A stretch of DNA of 64,000 nt from Nocardiopsis ansamitocini (lineage in GTDB: Bacteria > Actinomycetota > Actinomycetes > Streptosporangiales > Streptosporangiaceae): assembly GCF_030268225.1 (NCBI RefSeq), contig NZ_BSQG01000005.1, forward strand, positions 186,001 through 250,000, written 5' to 3'. The notes beneath the pieces were generated by a model that was not told the origin of the DNA, searched no databases, and saw only the letters and a program-made list of their open reading frames with translations. Shown here piece by piece: positions 43,846 through 48,835 of this stretch. Position 1 is the stretch's first letter. Every line of letters starts with the position of its first letter. The position numbers and the translations under genes are program-made.

Positions 43846-44607
43846 TCACACACGGTCCAGGAAACCGCCGTCCACGACCAGGTTGGTCCCGGTGATGTAC
43901 TCGGCCGCCGGCGAGCCCAGGAACACCACGGCACGGGCGACGTCCTCGGCCGTGCCGAGGCGACCGCTGGGGATACGGGAGCGGATGCCGGCATAGAAGT
44001 CGGGGTCGGTCTCCCGACGCCGGGCCCAGCCGCCTCCCTCGAACTCGGTGGGCCCCGGGGAGACGGTGTTGACGCGCACCCCTCGGGCAGGGAGCGTGCG
44101 GGCCAGACCGGCCGCGTAGTGGTTGAGTGCTGCCTTGAGCGGGCCGTACGCCTTCGGTCCGGACGGAGCGGAGGTGTGCAGCGCCGAGGTGCTGGAGATC
44201 AGTACCACCGAGCCGCCCCGGGCGGAGGCCGCCAGGTGCTCCTCGGCCTCGTCCACGAGGTGGACGAAGGGCATGAGGTCGGTACTGAAATTCCGTTGCC
44301 ACTGGTCGGGAGACGCACTGCTGCCGGCGGAGACGTTGGATACCACGATGTCGATTCCACCCAGTTCATGGGCCGCGCGGGCGACGAAGGCGCGCAGGGC
44401 CGCCTCGTCGGTGACGTCCAGCGCCTGATCCACGACCGTGGCACCCGTGCCGCGCAGTTGCCCGGCCGCCTCGGTGAGCGGCTCCGGGGAGCGCGCACAG
44501 ATCGCGAGGTCGGCGCCTTCGTCGGCGAAGGTCTGGGCGATGGCACGGCCGATGCCGCGACTGGCGCCGGTGACCACGACCCTTGCTCCGTCGAGTCCCA
44601 AGTCCAT
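43846..44607 (-). CDS. SDR-family oxidoreductase
   Basis: 253 residues, classical short-chain dehydrogenase. Cofactor loop TGASRGIGRAIAQ, NNAG-equivalent VSNVSAGSS, catalytic Ser in LISSTSALHTS, and Tyr-x3-Lys in AYGPLKAALN. The C-terminal VAFLGSPAAEYITG-like segment reads VVFLGSPAAEYITGTNLVVD. It lies downstream of fabI on the same strand, but a strong hairpin (44646-44683) separates them, so it may have its own promoter. Substrate not identifiable. Confidence 0.9.
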   Translation of the reverse strand: MDLGLDGARVVVTGASRGIGRAIAQTFADEGADLAICARSPEPLTEAAGQLRGTGATVVDQALDVTDEAALRAFVARAAHELGGIDIVVSNVSAGSSASPDQWQRNFSTDLMPFVHLVDEAEEHLAASARGGSVVLISSTSALHTSAPSGPKAYGPLKAALNHYAAGLARTLPARGVRVNTVSPGPTEFEGGGWARRRETDPDFYAGIRSRIPSGRLGTAEDVARAVVFLGSPAAEYITGTNLVVDGGFLDRV

Positions 44608-44645
44608 TGTCGTCTCCCTCTGTCGGTGACCGTGGGTCAGGCAAA

Positions 44646-44683
44646 GGCCGCGGGTACCCGAGTGGTGGCGGGTACCCGCGGCC
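44646..44683 (-). terminator. Terminator after fabI
   Basis: GGCCGCGGGTACCC (44646-44659) and GGGTACCCGCGGCC (44670-44683) form a perfect 14-bp stem; the minus-strand tail reads TTTGCC. It follows the fabI stop by 16 bases. Confidence 0.75.
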
Positions 44684-44698
44684 GGGTGGTGCTGGACA

Positions 44699-45463
44699 CT
44701 ACGCGCCGGTGGAGTGGAACCCTCCGTCGACGTGCACGATCTCGCCGGTGGTGGCCGGGAACCAGTCCGAGAGCAGCGCGACGACGGCGCGGGCGGCGGG
44801 CTCGGGGTCGGTGGTGTCCCAGCCCAGCGGGGCGCGCTCGGGCCACGCCGAGGCCAGCTGGTCGAAGCCGGGGATGCTGCGGGCGGCCATGGTGCTCAGC
44901 GGGCCCGCGGAGACCAGGTTGACCCGGATGTTCTGCTCGCCGAGGTAGCGGGCCAGGTAGCGCGCGGTGGAGGTGAGGCCGGACTTGGCCACGCCCATCC
45001 AGTCGTAGATCGGGTAGGAGACGCTGTTGTCGAAGTCCAGCGCCACCACCGAGCCACCGTCCTTCATCAGCGGCAGCACCGCGGTGGTGAGGGACTTCAG
45101 CGAGAAGGTCGAGGTGTGGATGGCCGTGGCGACGTCCTCCCACTTGGTGTTGAGGAAGTTGCCGCCCAACGCGTCCTGGGGGGTGAAGCCGATGGAGTGC
45201 ACGACGCCGTCGAGGCCGTCCACGTGCTCGGCGATACGTCCGGCGAGGCTTTCCAGGTGGCCCTCGTCGGTCACGTCGAGTTCCAGCACGGGGGGCGTGT
45301 CGGGCAGCCGTTGGGCGATGCGGTTGACCAGGCTGAGCCGACCGTATCCGGTGAGCACGACCGTGGCGCCCTGCTCCTGGCAGAGCTTGGCCACGTGGAA
45401 GGCGATCGAGGAGTCGGTGAGCACCCCGGTGACCAGGATGCGCTTTCCTTCAAGAATTCCCAT
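44699..45463 (-). CDS. fabI: Enoyl-ACP reductase FabI (InhA-like)
   Basis: 254 residues. NADH-dependent reduction of the enoyl-ACP double bond in the last step of each fatty acid elongation round. The cofactor loop is TGVLTDSSIAFHVAKLCQEQ, and the catalytic Tyr-x6-Lys is YDWMGVAK in SYPIYDWMGVAKSGL. HSIGF and GPLSTMAAR (the flexible substrate loop) are present. Like mycobacterial mabA-inhA it follows fabG on the same strand, 69 bp downstream. It is the target type of isoniazid and triclosan in other bacteria. Confidence 0.95.
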   Translation of the reverse strand: MGILEGKRILVTGVLTDSSIAFHVAKLCQEQGATVVLTGYGRLSLVNRIAQRLPDTPPVLELDVTDEGHLESLAGRIAEHVDGLDGVVHSIGFTPQDALGGNFLNTKWEDVATAIHTSTFSLKSLTTAVLPLMKDGGSVVALDFDNSVSYPIYDWMGVAKSGLTSTARYLARYLGEQNIRVNLVSAGPLSTMAARSIPGFDQLASAWPERAPLGWDTTDPEPAARAVVALLSDWFPATTGEIVHVDGGFHSTGA

Positions 45464-45532
45464 TGGCGGTTTTTGTCCTTGTTCGATAGTTGCCGTGCGG
45501 AATCAGGGGCGGCCGAAGCCGACGGGGGGCGC

Positions 45533-46471
<939 letters not shown>

Positions 46472-46512: not shown

Positions 46513-47535
46513 TCAGTGCGCGTCGAGACGGTCGATGCCCGCGGCGATCAGGGCGGGCACGGCGGTGCCGACCCGCTCGAAGTCGGCTCCTACGGTCTGG
46601 CCGTGGATGAACCGGTAGTGGATGCCTTCCAGGATCACCGCGATCTTGAAGTAGGCGAAGCTCACATACCAGGCGAGGTCGTCGACATCGCACCCGGAGC
46701 GCTCGACGTAACGGGCGACGATCTCCCGACTCCCCGGGAATCCCGGGGCCCGACGCACACTGCTCACCCCGATGTCCTCGGGGAGTTCCGCGCTGCTGTA
46801 GGCCAGGACGAGGGCGAGATCGGTGAGCGGGTCGCCAAGAGTGGACATCTCCCAGTCCAGAACGGCCGTAATGCGGTCGGCGTCATCCACCAGGACGTTG
46901 TCCAGGCGGTAGTCCCCATGGACGATCGCCGCGGCGCGTTCCCGCGGAAGACCCGCGGCGAGCCGGGCGCGAAGCTCCTCGGCACCGGCGAGGTCGCGAC
47001 TGTGCGAGGCGGCCAGTTGTCTGCTCCAGCGACGCAGTTGCCGCTCCAGGAAGCCGTCGGGACGCCCGAAGTCGGCGAGCCCCACGGAAACCGGGTCGAC
47101 CGCATGCAGTTCGGCGAGGGTGTCCACGAGCCGCAGCAGAACAGCGTGAGTGCGCCGGGGGCCGATGGCCGCCAGTTGGGCGCCGTCGCGGTAGGGAGTG
47201 CCGGGGACGAGGTCCATCACGTAGAAACGCGCACCGATGACCGATTCGTCCGTGCACAGCAGCCGGGTGGCGGGGACCGGAACGGGGGTGGCGGCCAGGG
47301 CGGTGATGACGCGGTACTCGCGGGCCATGTCGTGTGCGGTGGGCAGGACGTGGCCCAACGGTGGCCGGCGCACCACCCAGTGGTGCACGCCGTCGGTGAT
47401 GGCATACGTCAGGTTGGAGCGGCCTCCCTCGATGAGTCGCCCGGTCAACGTTTCGCCCACCAGGCCGGGGCGTGCCTTGTCCAGGTACCTTCTCAGCCGT
47501 TCGAGGTCGAGCCCGGGTGGGTTGGCTCCGCTCAC
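46513..47535 (-). CDS. APH-like phosphotransferase family protein (acyl-CoA-associated type)
   Basis: 340 residues of the aminoglycoside-phosphotransferase fold. Seen: a Gly-rich loop LIEGGRSNLTYAI, VVRRPP for the ATP-binding Lys/Arg, the catalytic HGDYRLDNVLVDD, and the metal-binding DWEMSTLGDPLTDLA. This branch is often encoded beside acyl-CoA dehydrogenases and is used in lipid or sterol catabolism (FadE36-like). Start set at GTG 47535, which has GGGGGA close upstream; ATG 47547 lies immediately downstream of the operator and could be a leaderless alternative. A TetR-type operator at 47551 overlaps its promoter. Confidence 0.85.
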   Translation of the reverse strand: MSGANPPGLDLERLRRYLDKARPGLVGETLTGRLIEGGRSNLTYAITDGVHHWVVRRPPLGHVLPTAHDMAREYRVITALAATPVPVPATRLLCTDESVIGARFYVMDLVPGTPYRDGAQLAAIGPRRTHAVLLRLVDTLAELHAVDPVSVGLADFGRPDGFLERQLRRWSRQLAASHSRDLAGAEELRARLAAGLPRERAAAIVHGDYRLDNVLVDDADRITAVLDWEMSTLGDPLTDLALVLAYSSAELPEDIGVSSVRRAPGFPGSREIVARYVERSGCDVDDLAWYVSFAYFKIAVILEGIHYRFIHGQTVGADFERVGTAVPALIAAGIDRLDAH

Positions 47536-47550
47536 AGTTCCCCCCATCAC

Positions 47551-47568
47551 ATACCGACCGACCGGTAT
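47551..47568. promoter_or_regulatory. TetR-type operator
   Basis: ATACCG-accgac-CGGTAT is an 18-bp dyad with perfect 6-bp arms, in the style of FadR/KstR-type TetR operators (repeats of ACCGAC/GGTCGG). It lies just before the starts of the phosphotransferase gene and 86 bp from the end of the truncated TetR gene. Confidence 0.7.
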
Positions 47569-47653
47569 CTACTACCGGGCGTAGCGCAATATACCCCAGA
47601 GGGTCACGACCGGGAGGACCGCGAGGAGAAGAGAAAAGCGTCGCGGGCCACAA

Positions 47654-48079
47654 TTATCGAGCGATCGAGGAGGCGGCCGGACGCAGGCCGTCGAGGAGCA
47701 ACCGCGCGTAGTATTCTCCCGCCGCCGCGGGCGTCCATTCCCCCCGCGGCTGGAACCAGGTGCGCAGCGAACGCACCGAACCGAAGAAGAAGTCGGCCAC
47801 CACGTCCCCGGCAACCTGATCGGCGAAGACACCGCTGCGCTGGCCCTGCTCGATCAACCCGTGGAAGAGTTCGCGCTCGCTCCGACCGGGAAAAACGGCC
47901 ACCGGTCCGGCGACCGCCGCGACCACGACCTCGACGGCGGCGGCGCGCAGGCGCCCCTCGACTCCCGTCCCTGCGACAATGGAGTCAAAGCGGCTGACCA
48001 CAACGGCCACGGCACTGCCCTTCTGCGGCTCGAACAACCTCGGCCCGAGACGGCCGGACACGGCCACCGCGGTGCACAC
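47654..48079 (-). CDS. TetR-family regulator missing its DNA-binding half (possible pseudogene)
   Basis: 141 residues; full TetR proteins are about 190-220. The C-terminal part is a good TetR ligand/dimer domain: ERELFHGLIEQGQRSGVFAD, VVADFFFGSVRSLRTWFQPR, and AGEYYARLLLDGLRP. The N-terminus (MCTAVAVSGRLGPRLFEPQK) seems to align only with the third helix of the usual HTH and the segment just after it, so helices 1 and 2 are missing. Only 105 bp separate its start from the stop of the upstream response regulator, leaving no room for the missing exon-equivalent. It thus looks 5'-truncated by a deletion. If translated, it could still dimerise with other TetR proteins. Confidence 0.6.
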   Translation of the reverse strand: MCTAVAVSGRLGPRLFEPQKGSAVAVVVSRFDSIVAGTGVEGRLRAAAVEVVVAAVAGPVAVFPGRSERELFHGLIEQGQRSGVFADQVAGDVVADFFFGSVRSLRTWFQPRGEWTPAAAGEYYARLLLDGLRPAASSIAR

Positions 48080-48184
48080 GGAACCACCTTAGGACGCGCC
48101 GGTCACCACCACCCACTCCAGGCGTTATTTATACGTGACCTTCATGTGTCGCCACTGTTACGAAGACACCGGTTCCGATCCGAC

Positions 48185-48835
48185 TCACACCCAGCCGGCA
48201 TCGTGGGCCGAGATCGCGGCCTGCACCCGGTTGCTCATGTCCAGTTTGGCCAGGATTCGGCTCACATGGGCCTTCACCGTCGCCTCGCGCATACCGAGTT
48301 CCCGCCCCGCCTCGGCATTGGACATGCCCCGGGCGACAGCCACCAGGACGGCGCGCTCGCGTTCGCTCAGCACGTCCAGCCGCCGAGCAGCCTGGTCCGC
48401 ACCTGCCGCAGGAGCCTGGGCCGCGAAACGCTCCAGCATCCGCTTGGTGACACTGGGGGCCAGCATCGCATTGCCCTCGTCGATGGTGCGCACCGCTGTG
48501 ATCAGGTCCCGGGGCGGAGTGTCCTTGAGGAGGAAACCCATCGCCCCGGCGCGCAGCGCCGCGTGCACGTACTCGTCCAGGTCGAAAGTGGTCAACAGGA
48601 TGACTTTGGGCGATCCGGGCAACTCGGCGAGTCGGGCCGCAGCGGTCAGCCCGTCCATCCCCGGCATCCGGATGTCCAGCAGAATGACGTCGGGGGCGAG
48701 CCGGGCCGCCAGTTCCAGCGCTTCGGCTCCGTCCGCCCCCTCGCCGACGACTTCGAGATCGGGGGCGGAGTCCAGGATCATCCGCAGTCCTGAACGCACC
48801 AACTGTTCGTCATCGACCAAAACGATCGAAATCAC
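48185..48835 (-). CDS. NarL/LuxR-family response regulator
   Basis: 216 residues. Receiver domain: DDEQ at residues 7-10, phospho-acceptor Asp in VILLDIRMPGMDG, and Lys in FLLKDTPPRD. LuxR-type DNA-binding domain: LSERERAVLVAVARGMSNAE and GMREATVKAHVSRILAKLDM. Start GTG 48835 with GGGGG just upstream, 10 bp after the kinase stop, so the two are co-transcribed and probably cotranslated. This kind of pair commonly controls a neighbouring ABC exporter; the only one here is the decayed copy at 50456. Confidence 0.94.
   Translation of the reverse strand: MISIVLVDDEQLVRSGLRMILDSAPDLEVVGEGADGAEALELAARLAPDVILLDIRMPGMDGLTAAARLAELPGSPKVILLTTFDLDEYVHAALRAGAMGFLLKDTPPRDLITAVRTIDEGNAMLAPSVTKRMLERFAAQAPAAGADQAARRLDVLSERERAVLVAVARGMSNAEAGRELGMREATVKAHVSRILAKLDMSNRVQAAISAHDAGWV

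Follow-up and report, generated by a model that had tools for sequence, protein, structure and literature searches.

A probable remnant of a TetR-type repressor gene beside a conserved predicted operator in Nocardiopsis ansamitocini

We analyzed a stretch of 64,000 nucleotides of N. ansamitocini (the window), in which a short tetR-like ORF and a predicted operator lie upstream of a kinase gene. TetR_A is one of two paralogous TetR repressors in this bacterial family, and the ORF is most likely a decaying, functionless remnant of its gene, i.e., a pseudogene, as judged from sequence comparisons. We consider it highly probable that TetR_A is represented here by this functionless remnant and that the operator, as part of a lipid-catabolism regulon, is read by the paralogue TetR_B and released by an acyl-CoA-type ligand. 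The TetR_A duplicate would have been stripped of the HTH and of a portion of its ligand domain. TetR_B, whose gene lies on another contig, would bind the operator at 47551-47568, and the kinase gene would be repressed until TetR_B is released by an acyl-CoA-type ligand. This reading builds on the orthology and decay of the remnant, the conservation of the operator, the intact TetR_B and the sites shared with other genes; from these, we infer binding and repression by TetR_B, its ligand, the membership of the regulon and the remnant's lack of function. The locus captures the loss of a duplicated repressor beside a persisting binding site, the gene being complete in relatives, a remnant in the window and absent from the relative G062. 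The type of event is already known, as it represents ordinary gene loss after duplication with survival of an operator. The locus also points to a predicted actinobacterial regulon in which an ACAD11-type kinase and a dehydrogenase are placed under one shared operator. An earlier note on this DNA had described the truncated gene and the operator; its observation was confirmed in part and its interpretation partly supported.

The truncated ORF and its full-length orthologues

The features of the locus are as follows.

46513-47535, minus strand: APH-fold kinase gene; the GTG start at 47535 is preferred by comparison with relatives, a start at 47550 is possible
47551-47568, no strand assigned: predicted TetR operator ATACCGACCGACCGGTAT, the proximal site of the kinase promoter, class ATACCGACCGGTCGGTAT
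47585-47599, minus strand: element CTGGGGTATATTGCG, 15 bases common to the window and G062
47654-48079, minus strand: TetR_A remnant ORF, 141 codons plus stop, GTG start, without HTH, most likely a pseudogene
47678-47884, minus strand: sole clearly homologous part of the remnant, corresponding to residues 147-215 of the TetR_A protein of locus L009, 57% identical
48185-48835, minus strand: LuxR-type response regulator gene, the neighbor of TetR_A in relatives

The description of the ORF as a tetR gene lacking the HTH proved correct, since Pfam found no TetR_N domain in it, and the upstream HTH frame named in the earlier note as a possible refutation was not found when full-length TetR_A and TetR_B were compared with the surrounding 1 kb by tblastn at E-values up to 1000. 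This search returned the C-terminal match and one chance match of 22 residues on the other strand and outside the HTH, and nothing else. The dimerization/ligand domain, which the note took to be left over, is not intact. The ORF matched Pfam TetR_C_24 (E 1.9e-12) at profile positions 52-114 of 114 only, and recognizable TetR sequence is confined to roughly its last 70 residues, where residues 66-134 pair with the above-mentioned part of the 217-residue L009 protein. Residues 1-65 resemble TetR_A weakly: equally high scores were obtained with 10 of 1000 shuffles against TetR_A residues 51-150 and, against full-length TetR_A, with 27 of 1000. About 18 residues ahead of the conserved C-terminus are absent. 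The remnant thus possesses neither the N-terminal HTH nor the complete C-terminal ligand/dimer domain of a functional TetR repressor. Its C-terminal 70 residues align with the TetR_C_24 group, to which its intact relative TetR_B belongs, but unlike TetR_B it lacks the HTH and half of the TetR_C_24 profile. No NCBIfam match was obtained for the ORF at E 0.01.

The GC contents at the three codon positions of the remnant (0.74/0.54/0.83) are gene-like and near those of the neighboring genes, indicating a frame that is still coding or lost this role only recently. By eye, an AAGGTGG stretch precedes the GTG start. Together with the open frame, these features suggest that the remnant could be translated, which counts against our reading. 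The openness of the frame is weak evidence, because at this GC content long frames often stay open by chance; an ORF of 537 amino acids overlaps the same stretch on the opposite strand.

Full-length orthologues were sought in 341 genomes of the same family, for which eight candidates per genome were scored (all candidates in the case of the own genome and G062). As the note had anticipated, such orthologues exist: the TetR_A group comprises 22 loci (L037-L058) with proteins 74-100% identical in this search, and the HTH is complete in 21 of them; in the remaining one (L058), the HTH is present apart from an ambiguous base at helix 1. Many more-distant TetR proteins were also found, 289 of the 341 genomes having some match at E 1e-25. 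Further short forms, likewise named in the note as a refutation, were not seen among the 22 loci, L058 being ambiguous at helix 1. None of the 21 NCBIfam matches of TetR_A reached its cut-off, so that no name could be assigned; the best match among solved sequences was 3dcf (E 2e-25).

The genomic context agrees with this assignment. Within the retrieved stretches, which extend about 1.5 kb to each side, the same response regulator gene adjoins TetR_A in 10 of the 22 loci (77-83% identity). In genome G010 (locus L009), the response regulator, the TetR and the kinase genes follow each other on a single strand, which is the arrangement found in the window. When the DNA between response regulator and kinase was compared with that of L009, strong similarity was restricted to 208 bp of the 3′ part of tetR (69% identity) and to the end of the response regulator gene, the remaining matches being weak (E 0.15 or more). 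The interval is shorter in the window than in L009, and only 105 bp separate the remnant ORF from the response regulator stop codon.

A sequencing or assembly error concealing a full-length TetR_A might be considered for a draft genome of 42 contigs. We rejected a hidden HTH on the basis of the tblastn search described above, and regard such an error as extremely improbable in view of the shortened interval and of the scatter of changes at conserved positions across the retained part.

Descent and decay of the remnant

For phylogenetic analysis, the 100 TetR matches listed were reduced to 86 by removing duplicates, copies of one locus and sequences shorter than 160 residues, and were thinned further to 52 by dropping rows of named genome contig loci, mainly from Streptomyces. 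In a quick tree of these 52 relatives and the fragment, the remnant grouped with TetR_A (23 rows) with 98% SH-aLRT support. This grouping and the presence of TetR_A's neighbor assign the remnant to TetR_A by descent; it counts against our reading that the fragment row fills only 32% of the alignment columns. The end branch of the remnant had a length of 1.39 compared to a median of 0.085, i.e., it was about 16 times longer. The remnant is 52-60% identical to TetR_A proteins, which share 70-99% with each other over the same stretch. Twenty-one columns are conserved in at least 95% of the 86 relatives; six of them are changed in the remnant and three more are gapped, whereas in a leave-one-out comparison over the same columns the relatives deviated at 0.26 positions on average and at four at most.

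In G062, the loss of TetR_A is complete: the gene was absent when all 72 candidates of this genome were scored. One candidate was a close match (L065, 67%), the next reaching 26% or being weak and partial, and L065 was placed as sister of the TetR_B of the own genome (support 98 in the quick tree). The locus itself is closely related to that in the window. The G062 kinase is, with 75% identity, the most similar one found (at most 71% in one set of relatives and 66% among the 80 best of 568 relatives), its response regulator is the most similar of seven compared (86%), and 237 bases lie between the response regulator stop codon and the kinase start codon.

These data bear on the proposal of the note that the truncated protein acts as an antagonist. 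The short protein would still be made and would form inactive heterodimers with TetR_B through its C-terminal helices, so that a broken duplicate would have become an anti-repressor, titrating TetR_B as a dimerization decoy and relieving repression beside an operator of its own family. TetR proteins carry their dimer helices at the C-terminal end, which is the part of TetR_C_24 retained here; the open frame and its codon-position GC would also fit. On the other hand, the remnant is 43% identical to the TetR_B of its own genome over the retained stretch, the conserved residues changed in it include two adjacent histidines, the 22 TetR_A loci showed no second short form (L058 being ambiguous), and the gene is missing from G062. 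Nothing pertinent on truncated TetR antagonists was present among the literature matches listed. We regard heterodimer formation as very improbable and give the decoy function an equally small chance. A decaying TetR_A remnant agrees better with these observations.

The operator upstream of the kinase gene

The note had described a perfect 18-bp operator. The two arms are indeed perfect, but the inner six bases do not form a perfect inverted repeat, and the sequence deviates from the 18-base consensus ATACCGACCGGTCGGTAT at two inner positions, which counts against our reading. Palindromy alone was rejected as evidence for an operator, because inverted repeats of two 6-base arms with a 6-base spacer are common in the window (43 versus about 36 expected). 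The exact 12 arm bases are present a single time in the 5.53-Mb genome, with about 0.12 occurrences expected. It is this uniqueness and the recurrence of the site before orthologous kinase genes, i.e., its conservation, that led us to take the operator as real.

The 12-base pattern proved too noisy for searches, with 115 places per strand at up to two mismatches in the own genome compared to 46 in the control, and therefore the 18-base consensus was used. Upstream of kinase orthologues, it was found with at most three mismatches in 59 of 112 rows. Scrambled palindromes, 200 in each case, never matched as well for 57 of these rows, and for the other two, one of 200 did. The 112 rows exclude two copies of the own locus (L001 and L004) and include it twice (L007 and L081); L009 and L037 are from the same genome. 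As the consensus was picked after the first sites had been seen, the 80 later loci (the best 80 of 568 relatives) were recounted apart, and 52 of them reached three mismatches. Among 17 further loci of the family, 12 had a site with at most four mismatches and five, all of genus g9, had seven. The site in the window is thus a conserved site of type ATACCGACCGGTCGGTAT that is predicted to serve as an operator.

Sites of this type are mostly missing from less similar kinases. Six genomes of genus g9 (L013, L199-L203) have seven mismatches at the kinase gene, L014 and the Nocardiopsis locus L150 have six, and the Nocardiopsis locus L158 has five. The operator class is therefore not universal, which counts against our reading, as does the finding that the best matches upstream of the TetR_A genes themselves have four to nine mismatches. 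In genus g9, the kinase operator has diverged although TetR_A is present. Two operator-like sites 83-85 bp apart precede the kinase gene in some relatives (L195, 2533-2550 and 2618-2635; L008, 1332 and 1415; L196).

G062 retains two operator-like sites in its kinase promoter, AAACCGACCGCTCGGTAT with two and ATACCGTCCGGTTGGTTC with four mismatches, located 85 bp apart. In addition, it shares with the window the 15 bases of CTGGGGTATATTGCG, whereas 300 shuffles gave at most 11, and by eye the distance of the TATATT within this element to the operator is 19 bases in both. No sigma-70 type promoter was detected when 47400-48300 was scanned, and the shared promoter element at the kinase gene is proposed on its conservation with G062 only.

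A further suggestion of the note was that the kinase gene has become constitutive, the local repressor being dead and the operator unbound. The broken TetR gene would be in line with this, as would the disappearance of the distal operator present in some relatives, whose best match in the window has eight mismatches. However, the operator arms are intact, G062 keeps operator-like sites and the spacing to the promoter element without having TetR_A, comparable sites mark linked genes, and the genome encodes an intact paralogue whose recognition-helix residues are the same. Constitutive expression is accordingly improbable, if somewhat less so than the antagonist. Of the three readings put forward in the note, use of the operator by another TetR protein has the strongest support, also because G062 retains its sites in the absence of TetR_A.

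TetR_B and a predicted lipid-catabolism regulon

Of the 16 matches to TetR_A obtained in the own genome at E 1e-5, TetR_B is, apart from the fragment, the sole close one (61% identity), the next reaching 27%. TetR_B has TetR_N (PF00440, E 4.6e-20) and TetR_C_24 (PF17932, E 4.1e-25), the domains of a TetR repressor, and is predicted to act as one. The recognition-helix region VTKGAMYHYF is common to TetR_A and TetR_B. A second tetR gene with the same operator, as the note had proposed to look for, was found in part: a site with three mismatches is located 69 bp before the TetR_B start codon, but it matches well in one half only, which counts against our reading. Relatives of TetR_B in G010, G023, G064, G093 and G062 have sites with three to five mismatches before their own genes. 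On these grounds, TetR_B probably controls the operator in the window.

In the own genome, the 18-base consensus matched seven sites with up to three mismatches, compared to two in the control. TetR_B and the seven sites are as follows.

G000:C6:19709-20323, strand not given: TetR_B, intact paralogue on another contig of the own genome
Contig C2: site at a zinc-type oxidoreductase gene
Contig C4: site at an SDR gene
Contig C6: site at the TetR_B gene itself
Contig C8: site 18 bp before the start of an acyl-CoA dehydrogenase gene
Window, 47551-47568: site at the kinase gene
Contig C9: site inside a candidate ORF
Contig C10: site flanked by a zinc-dehydrogenase-like ORF and, in divergent orientation, a TetR-like ORF

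Directly before the kinase gene in other genomes, we recognized by eye genes for relatives of the C2 oxidoreductase (L016) and of the C4 SDR (L015, L018). In the Streptomyces loci L118 and L101, an acyl-CoA dehydrogenase gene follows the kinase gene and a TetR gene faces it. The operator probably belongs to a small lipid-catabolism regulon comprising the ACAD11-type kinase, the ACAD11-type acyl-CoA dehydrogenase, the SDR and the zinc-type oxidoreductase. In locus L221 (2336-4207), divergent ORFs recognized by eye as TetR-like and zinc-dehydrogenase-like flank an operator with three mismatches.

The kinase in the window aligned with the kinase domain of ACAD11 (E 8e-50) and is of the ACAD11 type by sequence; higher scores were obtained with 9o56, by name an aminoglycoside phosphotransferase (2e-60), and 3dxp, by name a putative acyl-CoA dehydrogenase (7e-52). 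The C8 protein matches the ACAD11 dehydrogenase domain (E 5e-137), followed by 4hr3, a putative acyl-CoA dehydrogenase (2e-123), the rest among the matches listed being at 4e-44 or weaker. ACAD10/11 and the bacterial LvaA/LvaC are reported to process 4-hydroxyacyl-CoAs (PMC12440821), and it is to the domains of ACAD11 that the two proteins correspond. In contrast to ACAD11, the kinase and the dehydrogenase are encoded here by separate genes on different contigs, and their substrate is predicted from sequence.

In a limited exact-letter search of the open-access literature, the operator core and three variants of it turned up in two papers only, which both deal with the phenylacetate pathway. 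PaaR of Burkholderia cenocepacia is described as a TetR-type repressor of phenylacetate genes tied to a ACCGACCGGTCGGT repeat, which is needed for the control of paaA (PMC2770484). PaaR resembles the system proposed here in being of the TetR type, in repressing a catabolic pathway and in having a repeat that is the core of our consensus, but it stems from another organism and another pathway. These parallels to PaaR with ACCGACCGGTCGGT and to ACAD11 make ligand-released repression by TetR_B the likely mechanism.

Downstream of the kinase gene (43846-46378 in the window), we noticed by eye a run of short-chain-dehydrogenase-like ORFs, some of them FabG-like and enoyl-reductase-like. FabG-like and enoyl-reductase-like ORFs also follow the kinase gene in G062.
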